Shown: in pieces, positions 27,075 to 54,623 of the stretch | How positions within the stretch are numbered: the first letter of the stretch is position 1 | Layout: each line of letters begins with the position of its first letter | Assembly: GCA_016946835.1 (NCBI GenBank) | Contig: JACVTC010000060.1 | Location: forward strand, 879,501 to 943,500 | Origin: Neocallimastix lanati (nom. inval.) | Lineage: Eukaryota; Neocallimastigomycota; Neocallimastigomycetes; Neocallimastigales; Neocallimastigaceae | Reading direction: 5' to 3' | DNA length: 64,000 nt | The notes under the pieces: generated by a model | What the model saw: only the letters and a program-made list of their open reading frames with translations | What the model was told of the DNA's origin: nothing | The model's database searches: none | Program-made: the position numbers and the translations under genes

Positions 27075-27087
27075 AAGAGTTATTATT
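27075..27087 (-). promoter_or_regulatory. EL4 self-complementary primer site
   Basis: Sense AATAATAACTCTT at the LTR/internal junction is the exact complement of AAGAGTTATTATT in the LTR (plus 27383-27395), 13 nt. That LTR stretch begins 35 nt downstream of a sense TATAAATA (plus 27423-27430), about where transcripts would start. The layout matches Tf1-like self-priming. Confidence 0.7.
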
Positions 27088-28054
27088 GTAATAATTTAAT
27101 TATAAAATTAATTAGAATTAAATTATTAACTACAACTTAATAATAACTAAATAATAATTATTATTAAATTGAGAAAACAAAAAAAAGATAAATATACTTA
27201 TCTTCTATAAGAGAGAGTTTATTATAACTAATTATAATAAACTAATAACACAAAATTGTCAAAGAGAAAAGATTATTTTATTTTATTTTTTTTTTTTTAA
27301 ATTTGTTTTTTATTAAAACTTACTTTATTAAAATAGAAATATAAAAATTTTATTAATGTTATTACTATATTATAATTGTTATAATAATAACTCTTGATTT
27401 CTCAAAGAGAATTCAAGAGCTTTATTTATACTTTTTTGAAAAATAAGGTTAAATTAAAAAATGTTTTCTAATCTTAACAAATCTCTTATCTAGGAAAAGA
27501 TTAGAGAGAAAAACCTAGATAAGATTTTTGATCGATATTCTATCCATATCGATCATCGTATCAATTAGGTAAAACCAATTACTTTTAAAAAGTGATTGGG
27601 AAAAACCCTAATTGACCGATTAGCTAATCTAATTTAATTGATCGAAAATAAAAGAATAAAATAATAAAAGATATTTCGACCATAAAATCATAAATTTACA
27701 AATAAGGAAAATAACATAATAATGATATTAATAAACAAAATACAGAATACATTATTAAGTACATATTAGAATACATAATATATTTGTTTACAATTTAATT
27801 AAATAAATAAACTAAGACTAATAAATTTAATAATTAAATATATAATTAAATAAACTATAATTATTTATAAATGTATAAATAATAATTAATTAAATAAATT
27901 TGTTGTATTAAATTAATGATTATTTAATATTGAGTTTAATAAATTATTAATAATATTTAAATGAATAAATATTATATAATTAAATAAAGTTATAATTATA
28001 ACTTAACTAAGAAAATATAATTATTTTATTTAAAAATAATTATAGATTCTTACA
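27087..28054 (-). repeat. 5' LTR of EL4
   Basis: 968 bp, matching 21330-22297. It contains the TATA box at 27423-27430 and the putative self-primer at 27383-27395. Confidence 0.92.
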
Positions 28055-28070
28055 CAATTTTTCAACCAAG

Positions 28071-28142
28071 GGAGGGTTGGCGTAACGGTAGCGCGTCCGC
28101 CTCCAGAGCGGAAGGTTGGGTGTTCGAATCACTCACTCTCCA
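28071..28142 (+). tRNA. tRNA-Trp (CCA), copy 5 (variant)
   Basis: Same as copy 1 except for one C-to-T change in the D stem (GCGT/GCGC), which turns a C-G pair into a T-G wobble. The fold is retained and a T-run follows. EL3, now with EL4 in its edge, ends 14 nt upstream. Confidence 0.96.
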
Positions 28143-29597
28143 TTTTTTTTAAATTTGACATTAATATTTTTATATTTTTATTAAAAGTAAAATAGTCTCA
28201 GAGGGTTGCCCTAAATATTGTCCATGTTTTGGTGTTAGTGTACCTAGTTTTTCTCACTGGATCCTTTTACCTGTAAAGAATTAAGAATTGGAAAATTACA
28301 GAAATAAATCTTTACCTTTTCTGGATGATCTGAATAGTTTTGGTATTAGTAATAGTGAAGAATGAGTTAGTTTTCTCTATTTCTATTAGAGAAATCCTGT
28401 CTGAGAATTCAAAAAAATTTTTTTTAATAATAATAACTTTACATATGTAGCTTTCTTGGAATCTTAGAAAGGTATTATGATTCAGTCTTTATTTTACAAC
28501 ATTTTTAACGGAATTGTTGTATCTCGGATATTTGTGGTTTAAATATTTTAATTTTTTTTTTTTTTCTTTTTTCTTTTTCTTATAACGAATTAAATTATAA
28601 AATCAAATATGATAATAAAAATTATTTAAAAATTAATTTTTAATCTTAAATCAGATTGAATTATCAAAATCTTAAGTAATTCTACTTTAATAAAATTAAA
28701 ATTAAAGTAAAAATTAATCGTGATCTTCGTGAAAAATTGTATTTCAAGAAAAATAGTATAACAATTCTAAAAGACAACTTTTAATAATCTTATTCTTATC
28801 AACGATATCATTTCTTTATTTTCTTTATTATTATTCGTTATTTTCTTTATTGCTATTCTTTTATTTCTTTATTATTTCTCTATTTCTATAATCTAATATA
28901 ATTATTTTTTATTTATTTTAATAAAAAACATTTATTCTTTTATTTCTTTTTTTTATTAAAATTATAAATATTTTAAATTCGTGTAAAAATATAAATACTT
29001 GTAAATATATATTTTTTTTAATTATTTTTCGTTGTTATCAAATTATTAAATTATTAAAATAATAAATAATAACCAAAATAAAATAAAATAAAATAAAATA
29101 AAATTAATAAGATAATTTATTTAAATAATAATTAATAAAGATTAATAATTAATAATTATTTAACATTATAATTAAACAGATATAAAATAAATAGCTTAAT
29201 AAATTAATTAATATTAGCAATAATTTAGAATAGTTTAGAATAGATTAATACTACAAATAAATTATTCTATAAAATTATTATGGTAAATAATTAGTAATTA
29301 ATAAAACTTATTAACTTTTATTATTAACTTGGTTATAATAATTTTGTATATAATAAAATATAAAAATTGATAATACATTTAATGTAGAATTAAATAATTA
29401 TTAATATAGTTAATAAAAATAGTTTATAATTGTAGATTAATTATTAAACTTGAAAATATTTGTAATAATAATAAATGATATTAATAAATAATAAATAATA
29501 AATAATAATAAATAATAATTAATTTTTGATAGGAAATTAACTGTTAAAAGGACTTCAATTAAATTTATAAAGATTAGGTCGGAAATTTAACAATTCT

Positions 29598-30827
29598 TGT
29601 AAAAGTTTTTGTAGGTGATAGGTAAGATTCTTGCTATATCTTTCCTAGTTTGAGTTAAATTGGTCAGGTCATGATGTTTTTATTAATTATAACAATTTAA
29701 TTAAATTTAAATAATAAATAACACACACAGAGTTTTATAATTAAGATTTCAATATTTAAGATTTATGTTTTATTAGAACTTTATTTAATATATATTTTAA
29801 TAATAAAATATTAACTAAGATTAATACAAAGAATTATTTATTGTTGTAATTAATTTATTAACTTTATATTAATAGTTTAACGATTAAAGGTTAAAGGTTA
29901 AAGGTTAAAGGTTAAAGGTTAATAATCTTACAAAGAATTCAAAATATGGAATTTCAAATCCTTTTTATACTAAACTAAAATAATAATTAACAATATAATT
30001 AATTAATACATTGTAATCTTAATATATTCATACATGTATATAAACTATATAAAATATAATAATAAAATAATATTGATAAGAATCTTTTAATACAATAATT
30101 AAATAAATTATTCATAAAACAATTTAATAATAAAACTAATTTAATAATAAAATATAATATAAAATAAAATAAAATATTAAAGCTAATTAAAAATTCTCTT
30201 TCGGAAATCTTTAGAATGATGAAGAATTCTTTAGAATCTTTTAGAAATAAATGAATAAAATATATAATAATAAAATATATAAAACTTACAAAACTTATTT
30301 AAAATATTATAAAACTATTACTAATAACTAATTCTGTATTTTTAATTAATAATATAAATCAATAATATAATTTCCAAGTTAAAATATTTATCTAATATAA
30401 ATTTCTTAATTAATAATTTAGGTCTTAGTTAAATAATTAAATTATATTTTTATATTTAAATATCTTTAAAGTCCAATATCTCGTTGTCTAGTTGTCCAAT
30501 AAGGTTGATTTTAACATATGTTGTAGTTCTCGTCCGTAGCTTTCCAATGGATATAATTTTAGCGGGAATATCAATATAATATTTCCATTAATTGTTGAGT
30601 AATCGTTGTTTTTCTTCATGTTATTTTTATCAAATTCTTAAGGGTTAAATTAAATTAAATTATCTTTAATAAATAAGTCCATACCCTTTGGTTTCTAATT
30701 CTTTAATGGTTCTAATATTTATTTTTATAATTAAAATCGAATTAAAATAATTTTTGGCAATAACTAAATTAAATTTCAATTGATCTAATAGTGAATTTTA
30801 ACTTCAAATCCACTAGTATTCGTGACA
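29598..30827 (-). mobile_element. Solo LTR E (self-primed type family)
   Basis: 1230 bp, plus edges TGTAAAAG...TCGTGACA, with a perfect duplication ATTCT (29593-29597, 30828-30832). On the sense strand (minus) TATAAAAA at plus 29962-29969 is followed 38 nt later by GTAAGATTATT (plus 29921-29931), the same arrangement as in the complete elements. Directly after that lie five TTAAAGG heptamers (29884-29918). Confidence 0.85.
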
Positions 30828-30883
30828 ATTCTACTTTTAGTAGAATTTCTAAATTAAGCTAATTGTTACTTTTTTCTAATTTT

Positions 30884-32330
30884 GGTATGGTTCATATAAT
30901 TTTAGGAATATAATAATAATTAACACAAATAATAAAATTACAATAAAAAAAAATAATTTGTTTTAAAATCAATATTTATTTATTTAAATTTATAAAAGAA
31001 AAATAATAATATAATTATTTATTTAATAAAAAGAAAGTTATTGATTATATTTTATTTCACTAAAATTACATGTATTTATATTTTTTTATCAAATTAAAAT
31101 TTGTAAAGCCTAACTATTTTTTTAATAAACTAATTACTAATTATTTTTATAAATAAAACATTTAAATTGAAATTGAATTATTATTTTAGTTAATAATATT
31201 ATTGCTATAAATAGTAGTTATATATTATTGAATTATTAATTATTTAATAATAGTTTAATACTAATATATATAAAATAAAAATAAAGAGATTATACAGAAT
31301 ATTTTATTGTGGTTTAGTTAAATTTAGTAATTAAAAATAAATTTAAATTGATAACGAAAATTTTAATAACTAATTAAATAGATTTGATTATTTTCAATAT
31401 AACATAATACAAAAGAAATATAATATTAATATATTAAGTGGGCAAGGACAATATTCTTGGCTAAAGATTTTTAATACATTATAATGGAATCGGATCGATA
31501 ATTCAAAAAGGAATTATAAGTTAATTAGTGATTTATTAACTTAAGATTTCTATTTAGTAATATTTGAAGAATATTGGAAAGTTCCAATTATATAGAATAG
31601 AATAATCTATAAGGTTAGAATAATTTATATTATTCTAGCACAATTAGTATTATTTGTTCATTCTGTATTAATTGATACAGAACATTTAAAATATTCCATA
31701 TCTAGTTATTTATTTATTTGGTCGTTTCTCTAGGGAATTATGACACAATAATATATTCTAATAAATATAAGAAAATAATTAATAATAATAATGTTTTATA
31801 ATAATATTTTGTTCTTTATTTATTTTTATAATTTTATTTTTACATACATAATAATTTATTATTACATTCTCTTAATTTTATATAATTGTTAAAATAATTA
31901 ATTAATATTATATTTTTATTAAACATATCTCTTTAACTATTAATTTCCTAATAACTTTATTTAAAAATACAATTTCATTATTAAATATATTTAACTATTA
32001 ATATTTAAAATATATTTCCTGAATAAAATATAATTATCAATATTTATAATATAATTCCTAAAACTATATAATTCTCAAAATAATATTTAAAATATAAAAT
32101 AAAACTTATTAATAATAATGATGAATTAATTTATTATCATAATAATAGAATCATTATTAATATAATTTATCTATTTTAATTATGATAAAAGAATTAACCA
32201 TGCTTTTAAAAATAATTATTTGAATTAACTATATATAAATTATTTTAATTATTATAACCAATAATATTTATACAATATTTCTAACCTAAATTTCTTACCT
32301 AAATCTTATTTTTATAGTGGTATCGTATCA
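30884..32330 (-). mobile_element. Solo LTR F (group 1) upstream of tRNA-Trp copy 6
   Basis: 1447 bp AT-rich segment, plus edges (T)GGTATGG...TCGTATCA, sense start TGATAC as in EL1. No ORF. It begins exactly where units 1, 2 and 4 give way to S1, EL2 and EL3, and ends 15 nt before tRNA copy 6. Its two 5-bp flanks do not match (ATTTT against TAATA), which suggests recombination between LTRs at two tRNA copies. Confidence 0.55.
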
Positions 32331-33200
32331 TAATAAACAAAAAGAGGAGGGTTGGCGCAACGGTAGCGCGTCCGCCTCCAGAGCGGAAGGTTGGGTGTTC
32401 GAATCACTCACTCTCCATTTTTTTTAAATTTGACATTAATATTTTTATATTTTTATTAAAAGAAAAATAGTCTCTGAAGATTGCCCTAAATGTTGTCCAT
32501 GTTTTGGTGTTAATATACCTAGTTTTTCTCATTGGATCCTTTTACCTGTAAAGAATTAAGAGTTGGAAAATTACAGAAATAAATCTTTACCTTTTGATCT
32601 GAATAGTTTTGGTATTAGTAATAGTGAAGAATAAGTTAGTTTTTTCTATTTCGATTAGAGAAATCTTGTCTGAGAATTAAAAATATTTTTTTCAATAATA
32701 ATAACTTTACATATGTAGCTTTCTTGGAATCTTAGAAAGGTATTATGATTCAGTCCCCATTTTACAACATTTTTTTTATAGAATTGTCGCATCACGGATG
32801 TTCGTGGTTTAAATATTTTATTTTTATTTTTATTTTTTTTTTCTTATAACGAATTAAATTATAAAATGAAATATGATAATAAAAATTATTTAAAAATTAA
32901 TTTTTAATCTTAAATCACATTAAATTATCAAAATCTTAAATAATTCTTTTTTCTTACTAAAATTATAAATACTTTAAATTCGTGTAAAAATATAAATACT
33001 TGTAAATATATATATATTTTTTTAATTATTCTTCATTACTATCAAATTATTAAAATATTAAAATAATATATAATTAAATAAAATAAATTAAATAATTTAC
33101 TTAATTAATTATTTATTATTAATCCTTATTAATTTTTATTTAACATTAAAATTTAATAATGAATAATAAAATATAAAATAAATTTTGATAGACAATTAGT
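32331..33200 (+). repeat. tRNA-Trp tandem unit 6 (shortened)
   Basis: tRNA copy 6 with the usual downstream sequence, then a shortened body interrupted at 33201 by LTRs B3, B4 and H. The 15 bases before the tRNA differ from all other units. Confidence 0.75.
32346..32417 (+). tRNA. tRNA-Trp (CCA), copy 6
   Basis: Same mature sequence as copy 1, but with an unrelated 5' flank (TAATAAACAAAAAGA). T-run terminator present. Solo LTR F ends 15 nt upstream. Confidence 0.96.
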
Positions 33201-33838
33201 TGTAAAGATAATAACTGAATTTCAATTTCAATTTCAATAATTCAGTTATTTGAATTTCAATATTAATAATTAATAATATAATAATTATTATTAAAATATT
33301 TAGGAAATAGTCTAGGCCAACTAATTGACTAAATATTATTTACATATTGAAATTAATATATATTAAATAATGTAAAGACGTGATTGTCATATTAAATTAA
33401 TTTCTACATATTATATTTTAATTATAAAATATAATATTTAGCTATATTATATTCTTATATTTTCTTTATATTAAATATTTATATTATTATCTTACTTTAT
33501 ATTATCAATATCAAACTTATATTAATACTATTACATATTCATATTAATAATTAATATTTTGATAATTAATTATTTTATATAAATACATGTTTAAATCTTT
33601 TGATTAATCTTTTGTAGGATTATTGTAATTTGAATTATAGTAATAATTATATAAAATAATAATGTAATAAAATATTATTAATATTGAATAAAACTTATAT
33701 TTTAAATAAAAAACTTATTTATAAAATTCACTAATAATAATATGTTTTAAATAAGAATAAAATTAAATTATTAATTAATTACTATAATTTGGCATCTTGA
33801 CCTAATCGTTAAGACCAAATTATCTAAAAACTTTAACA
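33201..33838 (+). mobile_element. Solo LTR B3 (EL5-type family)
   Basis: 638 bp, edges TGTAAAG...TTTAACA, flanked by the duplication TTAGT (33196-33200, 33839-33843). Nearly the same as B4 next to it and the EL5 LTR. Confidence 0.85.
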
Positions 33839-33842
33839 TTAG

Positions 33843-34498
33843 TGTTAAGATAATAACTGAATTTCAATTCAATTTCAATTTCGATAATTCAGTTATTTGA
33901 ATTTCAATATTAATAAATAATAATATAATAATTATTATTAAATTAACTTTATTAAAATATTTAGGAATTAGTCTAGGCCAACTAATTACTAAATATTATT
34001 AACATATTGAAATTAATATATATTAAATAATGTAAACACGTGATTGTCATATTAAATTAATTTCTACATATTATATTTTAATTATTAAATATAGTATTTA
34101 GCTATATTAGATTCTTATATTTTATTTATATTAAATATTTATATTATTATCTTATTTTATATTATCAATATCAAACTTATATTAATACTATTACATATTC
34201 ATATTAATAATTAATATTTTAATAATTAATTATTTTATATAAATACATGTTTAAATCTTTTGATTAATCCTTTGTAGGATTATTGTAATTTAAATTATAG
34301 TAATAATTATATAAAATAATAATGTAATAAAATATTATTAAGATTAAATAAAATTTATATTTTAAATAAAAACTTAATTATAAAATTTACTAATAACAAT
34401 ATGTTTTAAATAAGAATAAAATTAAGTTATTAATTAATTACTATAATTTGGCATCTTGACCTAATCGTTAAGACCAAATTATCCTAAAAACTTTAACA
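33843..34498 (+). mobile_element. Solo LTR B4 (EL5-type family), in tandem with B3
   Basis: 656 bp, edges TGTTAAG...TTTAACA, head-to-tail with B3 and separated by only four bases. Its flanks do not match, so it did not arrive as a simple insertion at this place; unequal recombination is more likely. Confidence 0.8.
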
Positions 34499-34503
34499 GA
34501 TCT

Positions 34504-35211: not shown

Positions 35212-35278
35212 GATCTTTCTAATTCATCAAGCTGTTTTAGGAGAATTCAATTGGTCTTGTACCATTTTATTAACCAAG

Positions 35279-37471: not shown

Positions 37472-38109
37472 TGTTAAGATAATAACTGAATTTCCATTTA
37501 ATTCAATTTCAATTTCAATTTCAATAATTCAGTTATTTGAATTTCAATATTAATAATTAATAATATAATAATTATTATTAAAATATTTAGGAATTAGTCT
37601 AGGCCAAATAATTACTAAATATTATTAACATATTGAAATTAATATATATTAAATAATGTAAACACGTGATTGTCATTAAATTAATTTCTACATATTATAT
37701 TTTAATTATAAAATATAATATTTAGCTAATATTATATTCTTATATTTTATTTATATTATTATCTAACTTTATATTATCAATATCAAACTTATATTAATAC
37801 TATTACATATCCATATTAATAATTAATATTTTAATAATTAATTATTTTATATAAATACATGTTTAAATCTTTTGATTAATCCTTTGTAGGATTATTGTAA
37901 TTTAAATTATAGTAATAATTATATAAAATAATAATGTAATAAAATATTATTAAGATTAAATAAAATTTATATTTTAAATAAAAACTTAATTATAAAATTT
38001 ACTAATAACAATATGTTTTAAATAAGAGTAAAATTAAATTATTAATTAATTACTATAATTTGGCATCTTGACCTAATCGTTAAGACCAAATTATCTTAAA
38101 ACTTTGACA
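37472..38109 (+). repeat. Left LTR of EL5
   Basis: 638 bp, TGTTAAG...TTTGACA. TATAAATA at 37850-37857, then 37 nt to TAGGATTATTGT (37887-37898), whose exact complement spans the LTR end and primer site (38107-38118). Confidence 0.9.
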
Positions 38110-38118
38110 ATAATCCTA
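38107..38118 (+). promoter_or_regulatory. EL5 self-complementary primer site
   Basis: ACAATAATCCTA, 12-nt complement of 37887-37898 in the same LTR. Relative to the EL8 pair it carries a compensating change. Confidence 0.65.
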
Positions 38119-38143
38119 TCCAGTATATATCGATTGCCTCAAG

Positions 38144-38860
38144 ATGTCTAAAATAACTAGTAACGCTACTTTTGTATCATTCGCAATAGATGATACAAAT
38201 AAATTAAAAGAAATAAAAAAAGATTACATTTCTATTGAAGAATACAATGGGTTTGTTAATAAAGTTATAAAGGAAGTTAATGCTCAGTTATCAATACTTA
38301 TTAAAGCCCAAAAACAGGCTTGTGCCCTTAGTTCTAAAGTCCTAAAGTCAATAGAAAATCGTTCTATAGATATGAATACTGCTCAGAATGTCTTAGATCA
38401 AATCAATAAAATACTTCTTCAAAATAAAACGAATTCGTTACATTATATTAAGCTAAATAGGTCCTTCAAATATTTAGATCCTAAAATAAATTATAAAAAA
38501 TCAAAAGGAAACACTGATAATAGAATTAATGTGATTGATAAAGATAAAATTATTAATAAAGAATCTATCCAAATCAAGACTTCCGAAAATTCGAGAAATA
38601 ATATTAATTCTATAAAAATTCAACCTATTAAGGAAAATCAATCTTTCAATAATGAAATTTCTAGCAAAAATCAAGTTTATTTTACTTATAACAATCAATT
38701 AAATATTAATGAAAATAATAAAGAAATAGCAAATAAATATAATAAATATTCTAAAATAAATATAATTAAGAAGGTTAATAATAAATTGAAAGTTAAGTAT
38801 AACATAAATCAAGGTGATAATTTAATATATAAGAACAACATTAATGTTACTCTTATTTAA
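38144..38860 (+). CDS. Gag-like ORF of EL5
   Basis: 238 residues. The N-terminal 100 residues are helical with coiled-coil character (KVIKEVNAQLSILIKAQ; KVLKSIENRS), as in the N-terminal parts of EL7 and EL8 Gag. Residues 110-238 are a Lys/Asn/Ile-rich basic tail. No capsid core, zinc knuckle or enzymatic motif is seen. The last few codons and the stop are read from the inverted LTR. It is placed 26 nt after the primer site, as gag is in EL8. It is best read as an N-terminal gag part; a function of its own is not shown. Confidence 0.55.
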   Translation: MSKITSNATFVSFAIDDTNKLKEIKKDYISIEEYNGFVNKVIKEVNAQLSILIKAQKQACALSSKVLKSIENRSIDMNTAQNVLDQINKILLQNKTNSLHYIKLNRSFKYLDPKINYKKSKGNTDNRINVIDKDKIINKESIQIKTSENSRNNINSIKIQPIKENQSFNNEISSKNQVYFTYNNQLNINENNKEIANKYNKYSKINIIKKVNNKLKVKYNINQGDNLIYKNNINVTLI

Positions 38861-39406
38861 AACATATTGTTATTAATAAATTTTATAATTAAGTTTTTAT
38901 TTAAAATATAAATTTTATTTAATCTTAATAATATTTTATTACATTATTATTTTATATAATTATTACTATAATTTAAATTACAATAATCCTACAAAGGATT
39001 AATCAAAAGATTTAAACATGTATTTATATAAAATAATTAATTATTAAAATATTAATTATTAATATGGATATGTAATAGTATTAATATAAGTTTGATATTG
39101 ATAATATAAAGTTAGATAATAATATAAATAAAATATAAGAATATAATATTAGCTAAATATTATATTTTATAATTAAAATATAATATGTAGAAATTAATTT
39201 AATGACAATCACGTGTTTACATTATTTAATATATATTAATTTCAATATGTTAATAATATTTAGTAATTAGTTGGCCTAGACTAATTCCTAAATATTTTAA
39301 TAATAATTATTATATTATTAATTATTAATATTGAAATTCAAATAACTGAATTATTGAAATTGAAATTGAAATTGAATTAAATGGAAATTCAGTTATTATC
39401 TTAACA
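38847..39406 (-). repeat. Right LTR of EL5, inverted
   Basis: 560 bp reverse complement of the left LTR from its outer end inward, missing about 78 bp at the inner end. Confidence 0.9.
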
Positions 39407-39466: not shown

Positions 39467-40023
39467 TGTAACAGATACATGGTAACTTCAAGCCTATCCA
39501 ATGATAGTTCTTTGGTTACGTAACGTATCTCTAAACAGCTAGCAATTTCGGCTAATCAAATAAAATCTTTTGTTATTTTCGTACAATAAATTTTATTATT
39601 TTATAATTAATTATATAGTTAAATACTTCTTTAAATATATTTTATTTAGTGATTAGTAAACTAAGTTAAATTAAATTATTTACCAATCATAATATTATTG
39701 ACATGTATAAATAATAATTGAACTTGTAACTGTAACGCACTAGCGTTACTATTAACGTAAATTGTTATTATAAATATTAATATTAATAAATAAAATATAA
39801 TTAATAAATAAAATATATTACGCGGTGTAAGCCCAGCAACTGATAACAAATAGAGTTATAAAGTGCTGCGCTATATTCTAGTGTAATTAAGAAGTAATAG
39901 TTATTGAATTAATTAATTTAGTGTTTATTATTAACAACTCGTATAGAGAGGTGTTAAGTTATCTTAGCCTTTAGATTTAGTTATTATTCGTTATTTTAGT
40001 TAATAATAAACATACCTTTTACA
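39467..40023 (+). repeat. 5' LTR of EL6
   Basis: 557 bp, TGTAACAG...CCTTTTACA. TATAAATA at 39706-39713; 36 nt after the TATA start is AGCGTTACTATT (39742-39753), the complement of the primer site. Confidence 0.85.
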
Positions 40024-40034
40024 ATAGTAACGCT
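40023..40034 (+). promoter_or_regulatory. EL6 self-complementary primer site
   Basis: AATAGTAACGCT, exact 12-nt complement of LTR positions 39742-39753. The sequence is quite different from the sites of EL4, EL5, EL7 and EL8, yet the pairing is kept. Confidence 0.7.
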
Positions 40035-40702: not shown

Positions 40703-43700
40703 ATGGATAAAAAGAATAAGAGTAATAAAGTGCCCGAAAACACAAGAAAAACCACAAGGAGTGGTTCTCTGAAGAGTTCGGTGGGCAGCGTGACTGCAGA
40801 GAGTAGCCCTACGCCTGTAGAAGCACCTCCAGCTCGACGCCAAAATACAGGAGACAAGAAAGTGATTAGTACTCCTGAGAAACCAGCTGCTTCTAAACCT
40901 AAACCAGCTGCGGCGCCTGAGAAGAGTCAACCCAAGGCTAGTAAACCTGAAACCAGTAAGCCAGGGACTAACCAGGGAAAAAGTTCAAGCAAAAATGTTA
41001 ATGCTGGAGCGATGGACTTTGCTGCTTTGCTGAGTAAGCAGATGGAGGACTTTAGGAACATGATATTAAGCACTCAGCAACAGACGGCTGCGATGATAGA
41101 ACAGATGCAAAACCAAAGTGAAATGAGATTCGCTAAAATTGAAGCTGAACTAAGCAACTTTATCCCCGCTGTGGACCAACGATTGGGAGAGGTTGAGAGG
41201 CGTGTGGAAGAAGAGGAGTCTAGTAGCCAAGCTAGTGTGTTAGAGCTTCAAAAGGTACAAGCGTATCTAAGTCAGCAACTTGCTGAAAGTAAAGATAAGG
41301 AGGCCGCTGTTAAAGCTGAAATCAAAAAGATTGAAACCTATCTGGATGCGGACCAGATAAAAGGAAAACAAATACAACAAGACCTAGAGGATAAAGGTCA
41401 AAAATTGTTCAAGATTGAGGAATTCTTGGATGCGAACCAAGAAAGGGATAAGGTACACTTGAATGAGCTCGAAGAAAAAATCGAGAAGCTAATGGCCATT
41501 AACCAGGTACAGCAACAGGAGATCGAACGACTGAGTAAGCTGGCTTTGGATGCTCAGAATAAGGAGCAGGCATCGACGAGCAAACCTTTCCCACTACACA
41601 TAGATACTAAAGAAGCAAGATACGGTAGTTATCACCACCTCACGCCGCCTATAATGACCAGAAGTGCGATGGAAGATGTGGTTATGACCGACACGTACCC
41701 CGTGGAGTACGAACGGGACATCCCAATGTTCAATGGTGAAACTGGGGATGTAGAATCATTTATTGACAGATTAAAAAGGTACTTTGGTAGACACCAGAAG
41801 TATTACCAAAGCGAGCCCACGGCTATGTTGTACTTTATTGAGGACCACTTACAAGGAACTGCTAAGAAGTGGTACCAAATGGATGAAGTATTCAAACAAC
41901 GAGATGACCCACAACCTCAAAGGTTGATGGACAGATTGCTGAAGGAATTTAAAAGTGAAAGAACATTGGAAGAAGTTAAAACAGCAATGCTTAAACTTAG
42001 GCACGATTGGGGTAAAGCCTATGAATACCTATCAGAATTCAATAGGTTAAGTAGAATACTTCAGCTGACAGATGAAACCAAAAGACTACTACTCGTACAA
42101 CAAGTTAGACCCTCGGTTCGTGAAGCCTTTTATGATCTACCGGCAGAAAAGCAAACCTTAGAAGATTACGTGACTTGTCTAAGGAGATGCGATACATTCC
42201 CCGAGGATTACAGAGATGATTACCTAGAAAGATACGAATACAACCGCGAGAGGAAGATAGCCATCATGGCCCTACTTGGAATGATGGACCCGCGAAGACC
42301 CTCCAAGGATATTGAAGCCAAAAGAAGGAGGAACAGCGATAATCGCCGAGGCGATAAAAGAGATTTCAGTAGGAAAGAGCCTACTAAGCAAAACAATTAC
42401 GATAAAAACAAGAAAGATGGATATAACCACAATAGTGGTAAAGATTTCAGTACGAGACCAAGCGAAAAACAAAACTACTACAAGGACTCACGTACCAGCA
42501 GTAATAATCCAATTCCCAAGACAGCACTTCTGATGCAAGCTGGGTCTGAGTGCGAAGAATTTGTGCCAGAAGCCAAGATAAGTAATCTTCGTACCAAAGA
42601 GGGGCTCCAGGATTTAAATGTGCTGTATGATACTGGATCACAGATCAACATGATCCACCCGCAGTTAGCCAAGGAGATGGGACTCAAGACAGAGGACCGT
42701 CCCTTAACGTTCACTACTGCCGCTGGTAAAGTGCTGATACCACAGGTTACGGAAGAGTTCAAGATTAAGATTAAGTTGGTCGAAGAGCGTACTGGTAAAG
42801 TCAAATGGTATGACTTTAATACAAGATGCAGGCTAGCCGAGGCTATGCCGAGAACGATCATTCTGGGATCAAGATTCATGGATAGACACTTAATCTATAG
42901 GAAGATTGACGTCCATGATCAACAGCCGAAGGTATATAAAATAGATGGCGAAAGACCAGGGCTACCAGATGTAGACTCATCAGAAGAGTGTGCAGGTGAA
43001 AGTATCTACATGGTGCAACTCCCAGAAGAAAAAGAAGAAGCTGTACAGAAGGAGATTCAACCTACAGCGAGAATTACCAAAATTATAAATCAGGTTATTG
43101 ATAACCAGAAGTTGAAGGACACGGTGTATGAATTAACGAGGCAATATTACCGTGATAGAGGAATTGAGTATACGATGGATTACTACGATTACTTAGTGGA
43201 TTACGACAAATGGGCAAATTGGTTCAAGGTACAGAGGACTAAAAATCTAAAGGAGAGTGAAATTAATAAAAACCCTACGGAAAGTAGTGCACAAAAAGAT
43301 AGCCAGACAAAAGATCATCTAGCCATGATCACGCAAGAGGATTCGGTAGCGGAAACAATCAGAAAAGTGGGACTTGAGAAGCTATTGTCAATAGGCGAAA
43401 TTATAGATAAGTATTATGGAGACTTAACAGAAGCTTTTAATGAAGAAATCGCTGAAACATTACCAGAGCACAGGCCGTATGATTGTAAAATAGAATTAGA
43501 GCCTGATGAACCACTTTATAAAGGAGCTATCTACCCAACGAGTCCCAAAGAAGAGAAAGCACTTAAAGAATATATTGATGAAAATTTAGCTAAGGGGTTT
43601 ATAAGAAGGTCAGAATCTCCGGCGGGTTACCCTGTATTGTTCGTGCCGAAGAAATCAGGTGAGCTACGACTTTGCATGGATTATCGCAAACTGAACCAAT

Positions 43701-46381
43701 GGACTAAACGCAACGCCTATCCGATCCCAAGAATTAATGCAGTGTTCGAAGCTATGAAAGGAGCGGTTGTGTTCTCCAAGTTCGATCTGAAATCTTCCTA
43801 CAACCTGGTACGAATTCGAGAAGGTGATGAGTACAAGACAGCCTTCAACACCAAGTTTGGACACTTTGAGCATCTGGTAATGCCTTTTGGGCTAACTAAT
43901 GCACCAGCAGTGTTCCAAAGCTTCGTGAATGATGTCTTCAGCGAGGATATCGGGAAGTACTGTCAAGTCTACCTAGATGACATCGTCGTATATTCCAAAA
44001 CTTTGGAGGAACATGTAGAGCATGTTCGAACGATTTTAAAGAAACTAATATAACACAAACTCGTAGCTAAGATGTCCAAATGTGAGCTACATAAATTAAA
44101 GATTTCATTTCTAGGCCATGTGGTCAGCAAGGATGGTGTAGAGACTGACCCAGAAAAGATTAAGGCCGTGGCAGAATGGCCACAACCAGAAAATATCAAG
44201 CAGATGCAAAGCTTCTTAGGCTTTTGCAATTATTACAGGAATTTTATTAAGAATTTCTCTGAAATAGCCAAACCGCTATTCAAAATGACCTCAAAGAAAG
44301 AAAAATTTGAATGGAGTGAAGAAGGATTGGCCGCGTTTCACAAATTAAAGGAAATGCTTACCTCTCCGCCAGTGCTAGCTTACCCTGACCACGAGAAACA
44401 GTTTTTCGTTGAATGTGATGCTAGTAATTACGCGATAGGAGGTGTGTTGTCACAGAAAGGAGACGATGGTATCCTTCATCCTATATATTATTATTCTAAG
44501 ACACTTAGTAAGGCTGAAGTAAATTATTCGATTACAGAGAAAGAACTATTAGCCATTAAGACTGCTTTTACAGAATGGCGACACTTGCTTCAAGGTGCGA
44601 AGCATAAGATTATTGTTTATAGTGACCACAGAAATCTGTTGTTCGCTACCAAACCACAATTACTAACTCCTAGGCAAATTAGATGGCAAGAACTATTCGC
44701 CACATACTGGTTTGAAATAGTTTATAGACCTGGGAAGAAAAATGGTAAAGCTGACGCCCTCTCAAGAGTTGAAACAGAGAAAACTGAGGGTAAAGAATTT
44801 GATAAAGATGGTCTATTAAAACCCGATCAATTGGTAGGATTTGATGACGTAGATGGAGAAGCTAGTTATCTAGCCTTAGCTACCAATTTCGTGGATGATA
44901 TCAAGCAGGCCTACCGACAGGATAAAATGGCCCAAGAGATTATGAAAGATCTAGCAGAAGATGCCAGAAATAATTATAACAAGAAGCATTGGCTAGAAGT
45001 AGATGGCCTTCTGGTTAGAAAGGAAAACCCTGAACAAATTTACGTGCCCACAACGTTCAGGAAAACAATTATTCAGTTAAACCATGACTCGGAGTACGCA
45101 GGACACTTAGGAATTGATAAGACTTCGGACCTAGTATCTAGGAATTTCTACTGGCCGAAGATGAGGAAGGATATATCAGGCTACGTGAAAGCTTGTAGAA
45201 CCTGCGCTACTAAGAAGGATGATCGCCATAAAGAATATGGTACTGCGGTAAGAGTTCCGGTCGCAGAATTACCCTGGCAAGAGGTACAATTGGATTTTAT
45301 AACTGATCTGCCAGTGAAGAGTAGAGTAAGGACCAATAGTGGTTATGTTTGGGAAACGAAAAGAGCAGGTTGTATCTTAGTATGCTGCGATAAATTAACC
45401 AAGATGATACACCTGATAGGATTTAAACATGTGCCCAACGCTAACGAGACTGTTGACGCATTCCTAAAGGAGATTTACAGGTTGCATGGATTCCCTAAGG
45501 TGGTTACAACTGATAGAGGTGTTCAGTTCACCAGTCAGGTATGGAAGGAGCTACTAGAGTTCTTCGGGACCGAAGTAAACCATGCTACCACTAGTCACCA
45601 CGAGACAGTAGGCCAAGTGGAAAGGAACAATGCCTACGTAGAGACTTATTTACGGTGCTTTGTGGGAACCTACGATGATGAAAGTTGGATGGACTACTTG
45701 TTTTTAGCAGAGTTCTGCTATAACAACGCAATCCACGCTTCTACCCAACAATCTCCTTTCCTCACCTTATATAACTACCAGGTACACAACTCCCCTAAGA
45801 CAGCCGATTTAGTACACTCATTAGGCGAAGCTAAAATGATCGATAGCTTTGCTCACAACTTGGGAAACCTAAAGCACATCCTAGAAATCGCCCAAACAAG
45901 ATACCTTGATAATATGGATAGGACCCGTACAGATAATTACCATAGGTACAGGTTGTTAGATAAAGTATGGCTAAAGAAACCTGAAAATTATGACGCGTTG
46001 CCATTCTACAAACTTACAACAAGAAAATTCGGACCATTCAAGGTAGTTGGTGTCGACGAAGAAAAGAAGAATTATAGATTAGATATAAGTCGTTCACCTT
46101 TCCCAAATATGTACCCAGTGTTCCATGTGAGTGAATTGGAACCATTCTACAAATTACCTAAAACATTAGTGCCGGCTCCTGCAGGAAACCAAAAGATAAT
46201 TCATATCCTTGGATCAAGGAAACACCAAGGGCTTTATCAATACCTGGTTGCGTACCAGAATGATAAACAAGAGTGGGTCAACGCCGACGTGATCGACGAC
46301 AATCCTCACTACGCAGAATTGCTGGAGGATTACCAAGATTTTAGCTATAGCCGGTTCATCGCTAGCGTCGTCAACCATTAG
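40703..46381 (+). pseudogene. gag-pol: EL6 Gag-Pol polyprotein region (about one break)
   Basis: Gag and pol share one frame, unlike the other elements. In order: a Pro/Lys/Ala/Ser-rich low-complexity start (residues 1-100), a long coiled coil (about 100-300), a retrotransposon Gag capsid domain (about 335-500), a basic linker, retropepsin YDTGSQ (near 42625) and reverse transcriptase with VYLDDIVVYS (near 43970). Next come RNase H with ECDAS (near 44410), the integrase HHCC finger (45100-45210) and DDE core (LDF 45295, TDRG 45510, GQVERNN 45610). A GPF module near 46030 is followed by a chromodomain-like tail (46200-46300), which makes this a chromovirus-type element. GC content is visibly higher than in its neighbours. 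It looks nearly whole, with about one break. Confidence 0.9.
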
Positions 46382-46405
46382 TAGCTTGCTCCTTGGGAGA
46401 GGCCT

Positions 46406-46911
46406 TGTAACAGATACATGGTAACTTCAAGCCTATCCAATGATAGTTCTTTGGTTACGTAACGTATCTCTAAACAGCTAGCAATTTCGGCTAATCAAAT
46501 AAAATCTTTTGTTATTTTCGTACAATAAATTTTATTATTTTATAATTAATTATATAGTTAAATACTTCTTTAAATATATTTTATTTAGTGATTAGTAAAC
46601 TAAGTTAAATTAAATTATTTACCAATCATAATATTATTGACATGTATAAATAATAATTGAACTTGTAACTGTAACGAACTAGCGTTACTATTAACGTAAA
46701 TTGTTATTATAAATATTAATATTAATAAATAAAATATAATTATTAAATAAAATATATTACGCGGTGTAAGCCCAGCAACTGATAACAAATAGAGTTATAA
46801 AGTGCTGCGCTATATTCTAGTGTAATTAAGAAGTAATAGTTATTGAATTAATTAATTTAGTGTTTATTATTAACAACTCGTATAGAGAGGTGTTAAGTTA
46901 TCTTAGCCTTT
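46406..46911 (+). repeat. 3' LTR of EL6, first part
   Basis: Matches 39467-39972 with few differences. It is interrupted after CCTTT by EL7; it continues as AGA at 53960-53962 and, after EL8, at 60306-60353. Confidence 0.9.
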
Positions 46912-47622: not shown

Positions 47623-48185
47623 ACGCCCTCCCATAAAAATCGGATTCAAGACGATTTTTGTGTAACGATACGGAGGTCTAAATTTTTATTAAAAAAATTT
47701 TTGAAATTTCATAAATTAAAAAATTTTTAATTTCAAAGGAAGAAGGTCACTTGAGTCCTTTTAAATTTTTATAGGAAACCCCATTTCAAGTGACCATTTC
47801 ATTGAAATTTTGAAATTTCTAAAATTTAGTAAAATTAAAATTTTGTTAATAAAATTGATAGTTGTGAATATAATGGTACCATTTTTGAATGAATTTGATA
47901 TAGAATTTTAGAAATTGAAATTTTGAAATTTAATTTCAATTAACTTCTTAATTTGTTGCATTAAATTTTAAAAAAATGAAAATTATAATAATTTATAAAA
48001 TTTTGATTATGTTGAATTATAAATTGATTGTTAAGAGTGTAATATAGCTATATTTTTTGAATTTTTGAATTTTGAAATTTTGAAATTGAAATTTCATTTT
48101 AGAAATATTGAAAAATTAAAATTAACTAAAAAAATAGATAATAATAAAGTAAAAGTTAAAAATTAATAATAAAAAATAAAATTTC

Positions 48186-48223
<38 letters not shown>

Positions 48224-48340
48224 TTTTTTTTTTTTTTTTTTTTAATTATATGCAATCGAAGTAAACTTCCTTCCATTCTTTAAATATAATAAATAAATGT
48301 CTTGATTTCTTGGGTTATTTTCAACTTCTTCTGAAGGAAC
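47623..48340 (-). other. EL7 3' untranslated region
   Basis: About 700 bp of AT-rich sequence with repeated TTTGAAATTT-type words and a long T-run at about 48190-48243; near the LTR it carries the sense purine tract GGGAGGGCGT used as plus-strand primer in LTR elements. No gene. Confidence 0.6.
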
Positions 48341-51300
48341 CTAATCGTATGAATTTTTATATTTATACCTTACACGATATTCATAACATTTTTTCTTATA
48401 ATTAGTCCTAAATCCTGCGATTTCTATAATATCCTTAATAGATTCATTATGAGATCTTCTTTTTCTATATTCTGGAGGAGTAGGAATGAAAGGTTCGAGC
48501 TCGGATATATGGAATATTGGATGGTGTTTAGGGAAAGGAGATCTTTTTAAATCTATTTTATAATTATTATTATCTAAAGCTTCAAGTACTTTATAGGGTC
48601 CGTACTTACAAGGTGATAATTTAGAATAATCTTCGATATTAAGAGAAGGAGGAGTTTGAACCCATACTAAGTCACCTTCTTTAAAAACAGGAGGTTCTAA
48701 TCTTTTTTTATCAGCATGCCTTTTATATAATTCTTTGGAACGTAGTAAGACGCCTTTAATGTGATTAAAACTAGTATTTACATTTTTTATATATTTAAAA
48801 TTAGTATCCATTTGAGGTAATAAAAAGAATTCGTCCATGGAGGGATGGAAACCATAATTTATAAAGAAAGGAGTTTCCTTAGTAGATTCGTTAACCGAAT
48901 TATTATATGTAAATTCTGCAAGGTAGATCCAATCTATCCAGTCATCATGATAATAAGCTCTTGAATAAGCCCTGAGATATTGTTCAATAAAAGAGTTACA
49001 TCTTTCAACTTGTCCGATGGTTTCATGATGATCTGTGGTAGCTATATTATTTTTAATTTTTAATAAGTGCATAAATTCATTTCAAAGAGCACTTGTAAAT
49101 TGTGATCCTCTGTCTGTATAAATATCTTGAGGTAAACCATGTAGTTTAAAGATATTATTCATAAAAGACTTAGCAGTTTGTTTTGCATCAGGTATTTGTT
49201 TAAAGGGAATTAAGTGGATCATTTTAGAAAAACGATCGACAACTACCATTATTACTGTATATCCTTTAGAATCAGGAAGACCGCATAGAAAGTCGATTTC
49301 TATAGATTTCCAAGGTCTTTCGGGAGTATCCAAAGGTTGTAGAAGACCATATTTTCTGTGCCTATTTATTTTGTTTCTTGTACAGGATTGACAAGAGTTT
49401 ACATATTTGGTTACATCTTCTTTTATTTTAGGCCACCAAAAGTTTCTTGTTATTAACTCTAAAGTTCTTCTAATTCCTAAATGACCGGCAGCAGGCTTTT
49501 CATGATACTTAGTTAATATTTCTAGTCGGAGAACTTCAGGAATATAGACTAGATTATTATAAAATATTAAATTTTCCTTTAATTTAAACTTTTCCATTTT
49601 TCTAAAGGGCTTATAAGACATATCATTTTTTACATTTTGAGGACTAAAGTAAAGTCGAATATCCTCAGCTGTAGCGTCAGACTTGGTAGCATCAATAATT
49701 CTTTCTAAAAGGTCACTTACAATACTAACAAAACATGGAATTTCTTTAACATTTTTAATGTCTAAAGTATTTTCAGGTTTTTCTTCAGTGTTGTTTTTAA
49801 TATAGTCAGGTCTTCTAGATAGACTGTCAGGTTTTCCGTTTTTGTTTCCCTGTCTATACTTTATTATGAAATTATATTCTTGGAAGAAAAGGTACCATCT
49901 ATGTTGTCTTTGATTTGCAACATTTCCTCCTAATGTGTATATTAAGTTCCTATGATCCGTATAGACAGTAATTTGGTATTTAGCACCAAGGAGTAGATGT
50001 CTCCAAGCAATAAAAGCATCCCTTATAGCGAGTAGTTCTTTGTAAGTAATTGTATAATTTATTTCGGCGTTTAGTAAACTTCTAGAATAATATGCTACTG
50101 GATGTAAATTATTATCTTTATCCCTTTGAGATAGAACAGCACCAATAGCATAATTACTTGCATCACATTCTACTATAAAAGGTTTTGTAATATCAGGATG
50201 AAGTAGAATTGGAGAAGTAATTAATCTTTTCTTTAATTCCTTAAAAGCATTTTCACATTCATTCGTCCATAAAAATTTAATATTTTTCCTTGTTAAATTA
50301 TGTAAAGGTTTTGCAATTTTTGCAAAATCTTTAACAAATCTTCTATAGTAATTACATAGGCCAATAAATCTTTGAACATCTTTTAAATTTTCTGGTCTTG
50401 GCCACTCTTCTATAGATTTAATTTTCTTTGGGTCAGTAGATACACCATCACCAGATAAAATGTAACCTAAAAATTCAACTTTATTCTGGTCAAATTCACA
50501 TTTTTCTAATTTTGCATATAAATTATTATTAATTAAAGTTTGAAGGACGTTTCTGACTTGATTATGATGCTCCTCCAAATCTTTGGAATAAATTAAAATA
50601 TCATCTAAATATAAGATCACACACTTTTCTAAGTATGGTCTAAGAATAGAGTTAATAAATGATTGAAAAGTGGCAGGCGCATTTTTTAATCCAAACGGCA
50701 TACTAAATATTCATAATGGCCATATTTAGTTCTAAACGCAGTTTTATATTCGTCACCCTCTTTTATTCTTATTAAATTATAAGCTGAACGTAAATCCAAT
50801 TTCGTAAAGTATTTTGCTCCCTTTACTTTTTCTATTATATCTGTTATTAGAGGGAGAGGATATGAATTTCTTATAGTTACTGCATTTAATTTTTTATTGT
50901 CTACACATAACCGAAGGGAACCATCTTTTTTCTTTTGGAAAAGGACAGGATATCCAGCAGGAGATTCTGATGGTCTAATAAATCCTTTTTCTAAATTTTC
51001 TTTTATATACTCCTTAAGAACTTGTGATTCTTCTTCAGTTAATGGATAAATTGGGCCGTAATGGAGTGTAGCGTCTTTTTCTAAAACAATCTTACAGTGT
51101 GTTAAACGGTGAGGAGGTAATTTATCTGCCTCTTTTTTGCTAAATACGATTGCTAAATCTTGATATTGATGAGGAATTTCTTCTATTTTTGGTTCCTCAT
51201 TTTCAATTTCAACTTTATCTTTAGTTGAAAGAAAACAATATATTAAAAAATTATAACTAAATTCTTTTTTATTATTATATAAATCTCGATGATTTTTGTT

Positions 51301-52146
51301 AAATTTTTTGGAAGATAATTTACTTTTAGATTTATTTAAATATTTTACATATACATAAATTTTAGAATTTTTATTAATAGAATTTTTATATTTATTAAAC
51401 TTTGGATTTTTTGAAAAATTTTTTAAATTTTTTAAATTAAATTTTTTGGAGATATTTTTTGAATTATTTTTTGATCGATTTTTTGAAAAATTTTTATAAT
51501 AAAATTTATTTTTTATTTTTCTTTTAAAAAATTTGTTTTTAAAAATTTTTCTTTTCAACGAGTTTAAATAAAAATTATTTTCCTTGTATTTTATGGATTT
51601 ATTTTTATGATTATTTAAAGAATTATAATTTAAATAAGAATATAAGGTATTATTTTTATAATTGTAATGTATTTTGAATTTCCTAATAAACTGATTTCCA
51701 AAAAGTAAATCAGTAGGAATACAATTTGAGATTAAAAATTTTTCTTTAAAATCTTGAAAATAAAATTTATTATTTTTAAAAAATTTAATTTGAAAATTTA
51801 ACCAAACAAATTGATCTAATTTAGTAGTTCTGCCTGAAATACCTTTAACTAGGATTTTATTTTTTGTTTTTTGAATATTTAGTTTTAATTTATTTGCTAA
51901 TTTTTCTGTGATAAAATTACAAAAGGATCCTGAATCTAACATAGATTCAGAAGTTAATTTTTGAATTTTTTCATTTTTAATTGAAAAATTATTTAAGAAT
52001 TTAATAGGAATATAAGATTTGAATAAAAGGAATGTAGATGGGAGATTTGATTCATTGATTGAATCAAGTGTAGGAAAATTATAATAAATTGTTTTTAAAT
52101 TTTTGGATGTTCTGGACTCCTTTTGAAGTCCATCAATTAGTTTTTT
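48341..52146 (-). pseudogene. pol: EL7 Pol, broken
   Basis: Retropepsin LDSGSF near plus 51935, then a Lys/Asn/Phe-rich linker, reverse transcriptase (YLDDILIYS near plus 50600), RNase H (ECDAS near 50160), the integrase HHCC finger (about 49380-49490) and DDE core (IDFLCGLP near 49300; TDRGSQF near 49105; GQVERCN near 49010). A C-terminal module ends in HISELEPF and a chromodomain-like tail near 48350-48420. Closely related to EL8 pol. Made from gag by -1 recoding. About two or three breaks. Confidence 0.88.
52113..52146 (-). other. Gag-Pol -1 recoding signal of EL7
   Basis: Sense AAAAAAC in gag frame just before the gag stop (plus 52140-52146), then 7 nt, then hairpin TGGACT/AGTCCA (plus 52113-52132). 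Confidence 0.75.
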
Positions 52147-53210
52147 TGGTTATTATTTTGATTATTATTATTATTATTATTATTAAAATAATTATTGCTA
52201 GATTTATTTTTAGTATAATAATAATTATTATTATTATAATTCTTGCTATTGTTTACATGTGGGCTTGAATGTTTCTTTCTTAAATTTTTATTACCAATAT
52301 TATTTCTTAATTGGTCCTTACTTTTAATATTATTTTCAAATAAGATGCACTTAGTATAAATATCACCAAGCTTTGTAGGGAATTCTTCCATTTTATCTAT
52401 TTCTTCTTGGAACTTTGGGTGAAGTCCATTATAGAAAAATAAGACTAAAGCTTCTTCATCCCAAGACAGACCAGTAGTTAACGTTCTAAACTTTTCTATA
52501 TAATCATTTATTTTTCCATACGAATGTTTTAATTTTACTAACTGGATTTTAGCCAATTTTTTACTTGCAACATTCGTAAAAGTTTTCTTTATATTACTTA
52601 ATAATTTCTTTAGTGTTCCTGGATGATTGTTCTCGTTATAGGTAGCAATATACCAATTTCTTGCACCGTCTCTTAAACGAGATTTGACAAAGTTTATTTT
52701 TACTTCTTCTGGTAATCCTAAGTTGGGATAAGTTGAGAAAGTATCTTCACATAATTGACAAAATAAATCTGTGTCATTAGTGTTTCCCGAAAAGAATCCA
52801 GGTTCAGGTACTTGTTGTAAGTTATTAGAATAACTATTTTTCATGATAACATCATTGTCTGCATCACGTCTTGTAGAAGTAGATGCGTTATCATCTTGAT
52901 TTTGTAGTACAGTTTGGTTGGAAGAGGGTTCATCGTTGGTACCAATTTTTATATCTAATTTTTCATTGAATATTTTAGTTAAATTAGAAAGTTGATTAAT
53001 AATATTTTTATTATCTCTATTAAGTGTATAGAGTTTTTTCTGTAAGTCTTGATTATATTTATTAAAATCTTCTTTTAATAAAAAACTATCATTAACAGAA
53101 GAAGCCAATTCTGATACGGTAACTTGGGCGTCAGACCTTAACTTATTAACTTCTGACATTGGGGCAATGTCAGGTATTGAACTAGCCCAGACGTTCGTAT
53201 AGTAAGACAT
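52137..53210 (-). CDS. gag: EL7 Gag
   Basis: 357 residues. Residues 1-100 are helical/coiled-coil, about 135-290 form the retrotransposon Gag capsid domain ([16 protein letters not shown]; a [11 protein letters not shown]-type core) and 300-357 form a very Asn/Lys-rich tail in place of a zinc knuckle. It aligns well by eye with EL8 Gag. The ATG is about 35 nt after the 5' LTR. Confidence 0.88.
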
Positions 53211-53234
53211 ATCAAAGTAGCAACTAAAACTAGG

Positions 53235-53247
53235 GTAAGGTTATTGT
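53235..53247 (-). promoter_or_regulatory. EL7 self-complementary primer site
   Basis: Sense ACAATAACCTTAC at the LTR junction; exact 13-nt complement of GTAAGGTTATTGT in the LTR (plus 53510-53522), which begins 40 nt after the sense TATAAAAG (plus 53555-53562). Confidence 0.72.
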
Positions 53248-53954
53248 TAAGATTTTGGTATTATTTATAGTTTAAATTTAAATAAAATAATATGTTTTAT
53301 TAAAAAATATTCACTAAGTCGATATGTCTATATAGTAATATACTATATAGATATATAATAATAATAATAAATATTTAAATTGTTTAGTTTAATAAAAATT
53401 TATTTATAATAAACTTTGATAATTAGAATTATCAAATTAATTTGATTTTAAATTTATTGATTTTATTTAATAATAAATATCTATAATATATTACTATTAA
53501 GGTAATTTTACAATAACCTTACAAAGAACATAAAAGAGAGATTTTTACATCTTTCTTTTATACTTTGTAAGTTATATAATAATAATATTTAATTATAAGA
53601 TAGTAATAATATAGTAATATAAATAATAAAATATAAGGATAAATTTAATTATATAATTAATTTGAATAATTGAATTTAATATAGATATGTTGTAAGCATA
53701 TATAAAAACATAATATAAATAAAATACACGTGACGTCAAATGTATCATTGAAATTAATTATTAATATAAACCTTATTTATTAATATTCTCAGAATTATTA
53801 GGCCTAAGATAACCCTTTAAATATTAAACAAGAATTTATATTAATTATTAATTATTTAAATATATATATTATTTATAATTAAATAAATAATATTTTTAAT
53901 TATTGAAATGTAAATAACTGAAATTGAGATTTCAATTCAGTTATTATTTCAACA
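53245..53954 (-). repeat. 5' LTR of EL7
   Basis: 710 bp, matching the left copy with few differences; contains the TATA box and self-primer stretch. Confidence 0.92.
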
Positions 53955-53962
53955 CCTTTAGA

Positions 53963-54613
53963 TGTCAAGGATTTGATACAAATTAATTTATATTTAATAC
54001 TACAAAAATAACAATTTAATTATAAATATAATTTGTACTCCTTAAATCCTTGTACCGTTCATAACCAAATTAATATTGTATTACATATTAATTAATATTA
54101 TCCCTTTTATACATTATTGAACCCCTAATATATTAATTGATTAATATTGTATTACATATTAATTAACATTATCCCTTTTTATATTAATTAATATAGTTGA
54201 ATATTATTTATAAAAATTGTTTTTTATTAATTATATTATTTTATATATTTTTATTATCTTATATTATATATGTATTATTCTATTACTTTATATATTAAAA
54301 TTATATTTTATATTGTTATCTTTAAATTAGTATTTATTAAAATATATTATTAAATATTTTATATTGTTTTTCAAAATATAAAAGGACTAAAAAATATTCT
54401 TTTTTAAATCTTTGTAAGATTATTATTTACAAATAATCTGATAACTTTATAATAAAACATATTAAATAAAAATATAGTTAATTAAAAGTTTAATAATAAA
54501 ATAATATTTTATATTTGAATAAATCAATTTAAAAAAATAAAATAATATCAAAAGGTTATTAGATTAAAGGCTTCCAACCAAGTTTACCCTTTAATCTAAG
54601 TACCAACTTAACA
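53963..54613 (+). repeat. 5' LTR of EL8
   Basis: TGTCAAGG...CAACTTAACA. TATAAAAG at 54377-54384; 37 nt after its start is the putative self-primer GTAAGATTATT (54414-54424). Confidence 0.93.
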
Positions 54614-54623
54614 ATAATCTTAC
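54613..54623 (+). promoter_or_regulatory. EL8 self-complementary primer site
   Basis: AATAATCTTAC at the LTR junction, exact 11-nt complement of 54414-54424. Eleven is also the length of the Tf1 self-primer pairing. Confidence 0.72.

Follow-up and report, generated by a model that had tools for sequence, protein, structure and literature searches.

Covarying pairing between the primer-binding site and the long terminal repeat in Ty3/gypsy families of Neocallimastix lanati points to Tf1-like self-priming

The fission yeast retrotransposon Tf1 was the first element in which self-priming of reverse transcription was demonstrated, and the mechanism has later been implicated in other settings too (PMC4600332). 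The first 11 nucleotides (nt) of the Tf1 RNA are complementary to the primer-binding site (PBS), RNase H cuts between nt 11 and 12 (PMC7175516), and the primer helix belongs to a 'pretzel' made up of three duplexes (PMC10085805). A PBS complementary to the RNA 5' end and a three-duplex pretzel are likewise described for the fission yeast Tf1/sushi elements Tj1, Tosmo1-3, and Tcry1 (PMC4600332, PMC10085805), and self-priming is said to be common to the Tf1/sushi group (PMC10085805). Beyond that group, it has been proposed for Tcn1 of Cryptococcus (PMC7175516) and predicted for the Tcn1 clade of fungi and non-seed plants and for the plant TAR elements of the Ty1/copia type, with at least 10 bp of complementarity located 0–5 bp past the 5' long terminal repeat (LTR; PMC6317226); the spikemoss element SM-Tcn1 had earlier been reported to show neither of the two kinds of priming (PMC2864245). 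The mechanism itself is therefore already known. Here, a 64,000-nt stretch of the Neocallimastix lanati (nom. inval.) genome (assembly GCA_016946835.1, contig JACVTC010000060.1, positions 879,501–943,500; hereafter the window) is described, in which five families of LTR retrotransposons, EL4 to EL8, each carry a PBS that pairs with a stretch of their own LTR. A small title-level literature search, a weak test of absence, found no report of self-priming in the Neocallimastigomycota.

These families resemble Tf1 of Schizosaccharomyces pombe in a pairing of 9–12 bp at the LTR end, a TATA box 34–40 nt upstream of the pairing partner, and an SH3_Tf2-1 domain (EL4, EL6, and EL8); they differ in the phylum of the host, in that transcript start and cleavage are predicted, and in that EL4, EL6, and EL8 have no recognizable chromodomain. 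Whereas Tj1, Tosmo1-3, and Tcry1 belong to a single yeast genus, nine primer sequences were found here in one genome beside families with tRNA-type sites. Tcn1 and TAR represent lineages other than those of the elements described here.

In all five window families the PBS began at the first base after the LTR, with zero spacer, and the LTR ended in ACA. On the plus strand, the presumed self-primer and transcript start of EL8, GTAAGATTAT (54414–54423), lies 37 nt past a TATA box and pairs with the PBS ATAATCTTAC (54614–54623), which abuts the 5' LTR (53963–54613). The EL7 presumed self-primer GTAAGGTTAT (53513–53522, minus strand; TATA box 40 nt upstream) corresponds to the PBS ATAACCTTAC (53235–53244), directly beside the 5' LTR at 53245–53954. 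For EL5 (plus strand), GTAGGATTAT (37886–37895), with the TATA box 36 or 38 nt upstream, pairs with ATAATCCTAT (38110–38119), which abuts the LTR at 37472–38109. The EL6 pair, also on the plus strand, consists of AGCGTTACTAT (39742–39752; TATA box 36 nt upstream) and ATAGTAACGCT (40024–40034), the latter abutting the 5' LTR at 39467–40023, and that of EL4, on the minus strand, of AAGAGTTATTAT (27384–27395; TATA box 35 nt upstream) and ATAATAACTCTT (27075–27086), next to the 5' LTR at 27087–28054. Each primer site begins with a purine preceded by a pyrimidine.

All five pairs had been proposed by a sequence-only reading of the window and were found where it placed them, as were the TATA boxes at 35–40 nt. 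That reading also claimed perfect pairing over 11–13 nt; the pairing stood, and the lengths did not, since one to three bases of the LTR end had been counted in. The proper lengths are 12 (EL4), 11 (EL6), 10 (EL7), 10 (EL8), and 10 (EL5; nine Watson-Crick pairs and one G.U). When each LTR was shuffled 1,000 times with dinucleotide content kept, the observed length was reached at most four times per family (EL4, EL5, and EL7, 0; EL8, 1; EL6, 4), so that the equal complementarity in shuffled sequence that would have spoken against self-priming was not seen. The corresponding fraction for a 20-nt window slid along the element interior was 0 (EL4), 0.0022 (EL6), 0.0022 (EL8), and 0.0112 (EL7). This second control failed for EL5 (0.43), whose interval contains an inverted copy of the EL5 LTR.

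Further families were retrieved from the assembly (199 Mb, 762 contigs) by reverse transcriptase (RT) searches with the EL8, EL4, EL6, ELx, and C287 proteins, ELx being a further family of the window and C287 another in the genome, and by a search for SH3_Tf2-1. The assembly contains thousands of preliminary RT candidates of the Ty3/gypsy and Ty1/copia types, 150 of each being scored. The same layout was present in 15 of 18 further 5' stretches of the genome (L021, L023, L025, L027, L029, L031, L033, L035, L037, L039, L041, L057, L059, L065, and L067), the other three (L061, L063, and L069, among the seven loci retrieved through SH3_Tf2-1) having, in the stretch retrieved, no LTR pair that could be used. 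For five of the 15 (L021, L023, L025, L027, and L041), the LTR end was set from the border and the pairing together, and their zero spacing therefore adds no independent evidence; they were kept outside the covariation set. Four new primer sequences came with full LTR pairs: AGCGTTAACAA (C190), AGTTGGAAAAT (S1, two loci), GTAATTGTTAT (S4), and GTATTAGTTAT (S5). Each has an 11-bp pairing from the exact LTR end and a TATA box 34–39 nt upstream of the partner; the TATA box lay 34–40 nt upstream of the pairing stretch in all 16 loci measured.

Together with the five window families, these four make a set of nine primer sequences from one genome. Matched PBS and LTR gave Watson-Crick runs of 9–12 nt, compared to a mean of 5.8 and a maximum of 9 among the 72 mismatched combinations, and the matched run-length sum was reached in none of 200,000 permutations. 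When 11 positions were compared, 96 of 99 cells were paired (permuted mean, 61.4; maximum, 88), a value that none of 20,000 reassignments reached. Both members of the pair varied at PBS positions 1 and 3–11, and close families differed by compensated changes (three between EL6 and C190, two between S4 and S5, one between EL7 and EL8); in a further family, C434 (L023), the pairing is kept through a G.U. The claim that sequences differ between families while pairing is retained is thereby borne out, and so is its extension to other families of the genome. EL7 and EL8, like S4 and S5, are closely related, and the nine sequences therefore represent fewer than nine independent origins.

By analogy with Tf1, self-priming of the Tf1/sushi type very probably explains the pairing in these families, a reading supported by the further families, the covariation, and a clean negative control among TGG-type families (below). 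Under it, the RNA would start at the purine 35–40 nt past the TATA box, and its first 10–12 nt would fold back on the PBS abutting the LTR. The element's RNase H would then cleave behind this 10–12-nt primer, and the freed 3' end would be extended into U5. If plus-strand DNA later copies the primer, as the general scheme of reverse transcription suggests, the PBS would be rewritten as its complement; the pair would then stay matched even while the start-site sequence drifts, which would explain the tight covariation. Many self-primed families and tRNA-type relatives within one genome provide natural covariation that outlines primer, start, and RNA partners without any experiment and that would place the starts of transcripts with an accuracy of one or two bases.

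Several observations weigh against this interpretation. In unconstrained energy folding of the R-U5-PBS region at 11 loci, the primer:PBS helix reached a probability of 0.89–0.99 in just four (EL5, EL7, EL8, and S1) and 0.47 in C190; in the remaining six it was ≤0.005, other folds winning. The three unpaired cells of the 99 all fall on position 11, in EL5, EL7, and EL8, the primers of which may be 10 nt long. A chromodomain was found neither in EL4 nor in the C-termini of EL6 and EL8, and the RT tree described below contains no Tf1 or sushi reference sequence. Finally, a duplex of the pretzel type between U5 and the sequence following the PBS is not restricted to self-pairing families. The 28 nt past the PBS paired better with the U5 of their own family than with those of others (11 loci; p ~ 1e-5, the lowest value that the test can return), with the own U5 ranked first for six loci and in the top three for all 11; windows at +45 and +73 showed no own-family excess (p = 0.10 and 0.74), and for the duplex 5' of the PBS (p = 0.006) the own LTR ranked first in just three of 11 loci. 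The U5/post-PBS duplex was also present in seven tRNA-type loci (p = 0.001), and its occurrence in both kinds of family shows it to be a property of leaders in general here. This 3'-flank duplex, real as it is, was consequently rejected as a criterion for self-priming; a U5-IR-like stem, strong in EL4, EL5, and EL8, was rejected likewise, being strong in the tRNA-type loci L006, L015, and L018 too.

The shared duplex and the competing folds would fit an alternative in which the pairing has a structural or regulatory role in the RNA, for instance in packaging or translation control, and something else serves as primer. We consider this very unlikely: no other primer site was noted, and the pairing starts precisely at the base bordering the LTR, the point from which minus-strand DNA has to be initiated.

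A conventional tRNA primer, pairing through its 3' end or an internal part, with the LTR match a coincidence, has a precedent in this genome, where other Ty3/gypsy families carry TGG-type tRNA sites. The sequence-only reading had found no such site; this holds for the five families and fails for the window, in which the Ty3/gypsy element ELx (5' LTR 13527–14327, minus strand) has the PBS TGGTGGAGATATCGGGG starting 6 nt past the LTR end. Twenty loci picked from 150 scored RVT_1 matches were examined as further self-priming families and rejected as such: all 18 with an LTR pair (L010 and L014 had none; that of L012 spans just 131 bp) have a TGG-type site, TGGTGGAGA being present in every one somewhere between 2 nt before and 9 nt past the LTR end given by BLAST. 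They were therefore used, with ELx, as a negative control of 19 loci, many of the 18 being near-copies, so that about seven distinct families including ELx are represented. Two PBS types occur among them, TGGTGGAGATATCGGGG (12 loci and ELx, 13 in total) and TGGTGGAGAATCC (six loci). A tRNA match was sought for the TGGTGGAGATATCGGGG type, which matches tRNA-Ala: its complement CCCGATATCTCCA behind a T-arm has 38 occurrences in the genome, and of three such loci inspected, two were called as tRNA-Ala(TGC) by ARAGORN. None of the 19 TGG-type loci showed self-pairing; self-complementary runs starting at any of the first nine PBS positions reached 6 at most. Conversely, a TGG start was present in none of the nine self-pairing PBS sequences (internal tRNA parts were not searched), each of which fits its own LTR better than any other LTR, and a tRNA primer for these families appears highly improbable. 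tRNA-type priming and self-priming would thus coexist in the same genome. That the complementarity is chance, helped by 76% A+T in the 64-kb window and by picking the best match along a long LTR, is barely credible, as mismatched combinations searched in the same best-of-LTR manner score far lower as a set, even if single runs reach the 9 of EL5's own, and as the positions relative to TATA box and LTR end are fixed.

The division between the two kinds of family is also seen in their RTs. In a tree of 44 rows, all 19 self-primed rows fell on one side and all 19 tRNA-type rows on the other, with a branch support of 100/100; the tree is midpoint-rooted with several long branches, EL5, which lacks an RT in the window, is absent, and the EL7 row was joined from two pieces. 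The self-primed side also holds the Orpsp1 protein P0092 and the amphibian proteins P0055 and P0102, which are presumably of the sushi type and provide a comparison with vertebrate sushi-type chromoviruses by RT alone. Among the best 120 of 7,865 relatives of EL8 pol, the names that look fungal are those of the Orpsp1_1 models P0035 and P0039 (71% identity), which we take to be from Orpinomyces; the best match of EL8 pol among solved structures is Ty3 Gag-Pol.

A Ty3/gypsy pol with RT, RNase H, and integrase is present in EL4, EL6, EL7, and EL8; EL5 is without pol in the window. RT, RNase H, integrase, and SH3_Tf2-1 are encoded in EL8 at 56027–59437 (plus strand) and in EL4 at 22307–24904 (minus strand). 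The coding region of EL6 (40703–46381, plus strand) comprises two open reading frames (ORFs), with protease and RT followed by RNase H, integrase, and SH3_Tf2-1, and that of EL7 (gag and pol, 49082–53210, minus strand) has its RT divided over two ORFs. The chromodomain PF00385 scored above cut-off in S1, S4, and S5. A -1 gag/pol frameshift is described as predominant among Tf1/sushi elements outside the fission yeasts (PMC10085805). EL8, the one element examined for this, resembles them: at the sequence level the open frame of its pol is shifted by -1 relative to gag, and a candidate heptamer, A_AAA_AAC (55862–55868, plus strand), directly precedes the gag stop TAG.

The detail that is new relative to the known mechanism is a predicted, covarying duplex between U5 and the gag AUG, of 9 and 6 bp around a 2x2 pyrimidine loop, in the lineage of EL5, EL7, and EL8. 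It is a gapless 9+2+6 duplex of U5 with post-PBS sequence that encloses the presumed gag ATG, and 102 of 105 cells are paired across seven loci (EL5, EL7, EL7b, C434, EL8b, EL8, and C287). Of the 5,040 possible assignments of arms, the true one alone reaches this value; the register was picked post hoc, and the U5 arm was the best match within ≤220 nt. With letter-shuffled flanks, the observed duplex score was reached in ≤0.4% of 500 draws at each locus. The loop is CC/CC in five loci, CT/CT in EL7, and CC/CT in EL7b, and the ATG lies at +35 after the LTR in six of the seven loci and at +34 in C287. L025 (EL7d) was left out because its LTR start could not be parsed. The U5 arm of EL5 (38063–38079, plus strand) pairs at 15 of 15 positions with the post-PBS arm at 38131–38147, which holds the presumed gag ATG at 38144. 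In EL7 (minus strand), the arms are 53311–53327 and 53207–53223 (gag ATG 53210), again with 15 of 15 positions paired, and in EL8 (plus strand) 54569–54585 and 54635–54651 (gag ATG 54648), with 13 of 15 gapless positions paired. For EL7 and EL8, the assignment of the ATG as gag start is taken from the listed ORFs; for the other loci it is presumed.

In lentiviral leaders, U5 pairs across the gag start codon. The duplex described here occurs in other elements, directly behind the PBS of a self-primer, and differs in its CC/CC-type 2x2 loop. The words 'start codon' are absent from the main text of PMC10085805, which to that extent does not discuss a gag-AUG duplex. Since the duplex would enclose the gag AUG beside the primer:PBS helix, the folded RNA could be an RT template that cannot be translated. 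It is conceivable, if doubtful, that an RNA of this lineage can either form the primer or serve for gag translation, but not both at a time; the duplex makes the division of RNA between translation and reverse transcription directly testable.

An inverted, PBS-like partial copy of the primer is found in U3 shortly upstream of the primers of EL4, EL5, EL6, C190, and S1. Over the 11 loci, this inverted repeat gave a Fisher value of 0.001, mostly owing to S1 and EL6, and it was absent in EL7, C434, and S4; it could mask the second copy of the primer in the 3' LTR of the RNA. A downstream hairpin was weak (Fisher, 0.036).

The LTR pairs of EL4, EL6, EL7, and EL8 were obtained by self-BLAST, with the ends fixed by reading the junctions. 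The EL8 3' LTR lies at 59650–60300 (plus strand), and the target site duplications (TSDs) are TTAGA (EL8), CCTTT (EL7), and CAATT (EL4). The interval 39467–60353 is a set of nested insertions, with EL7 and EL8 side by side within the 3' LTR of EL6, which runs from 46406 to 46911 and resumes beyond them at 60301–60353, where its terminal 53 nt, including the TSD copy, are found again. The EL5 LTR was delimited by its TG...ACA border and by other or solo EL5 LTR copies; self-BLAST did not find a direct-repeat 3' LTR for the window copy. A second EL5 LTR copy at 38841–39406 stands in opposite orientation to that at 37472–38109 (99.5% identity over 566 bp), and the ~730 bp between them begin gag-like, the full element being absent.

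ELx is an abundant Ty3/gypsy family represented at 5991–14327 (minus strand), with LTRs at 13527–14327 and 5991–6792; a second copy extends from 60356 to the window end, its LTR starting ~2 nt past the end of the split EL6 3' LTR (60353). The element X18 has a 527-bp LTR pair (18324–18850 and 20800–21326; 99.8% identity) around 1.95 kb without an ORF of 250 amino acids and is possibly non-autonomous; its post-LTR bases, TGATGCCCCCGC, fit neither self-pairing nor a TGG site. On the contig of C287 (L041/L042), RT matches of that family recur every ~6.91 kb, suggesting tandem whole elements with shared LTRs, although assembly could explain the pattern. A repeat of ~1.55 kb with 90–96% identity is present in at least four copies in the window (2364–3901, 4431–5992, 14967–16528, and 28055–29594).

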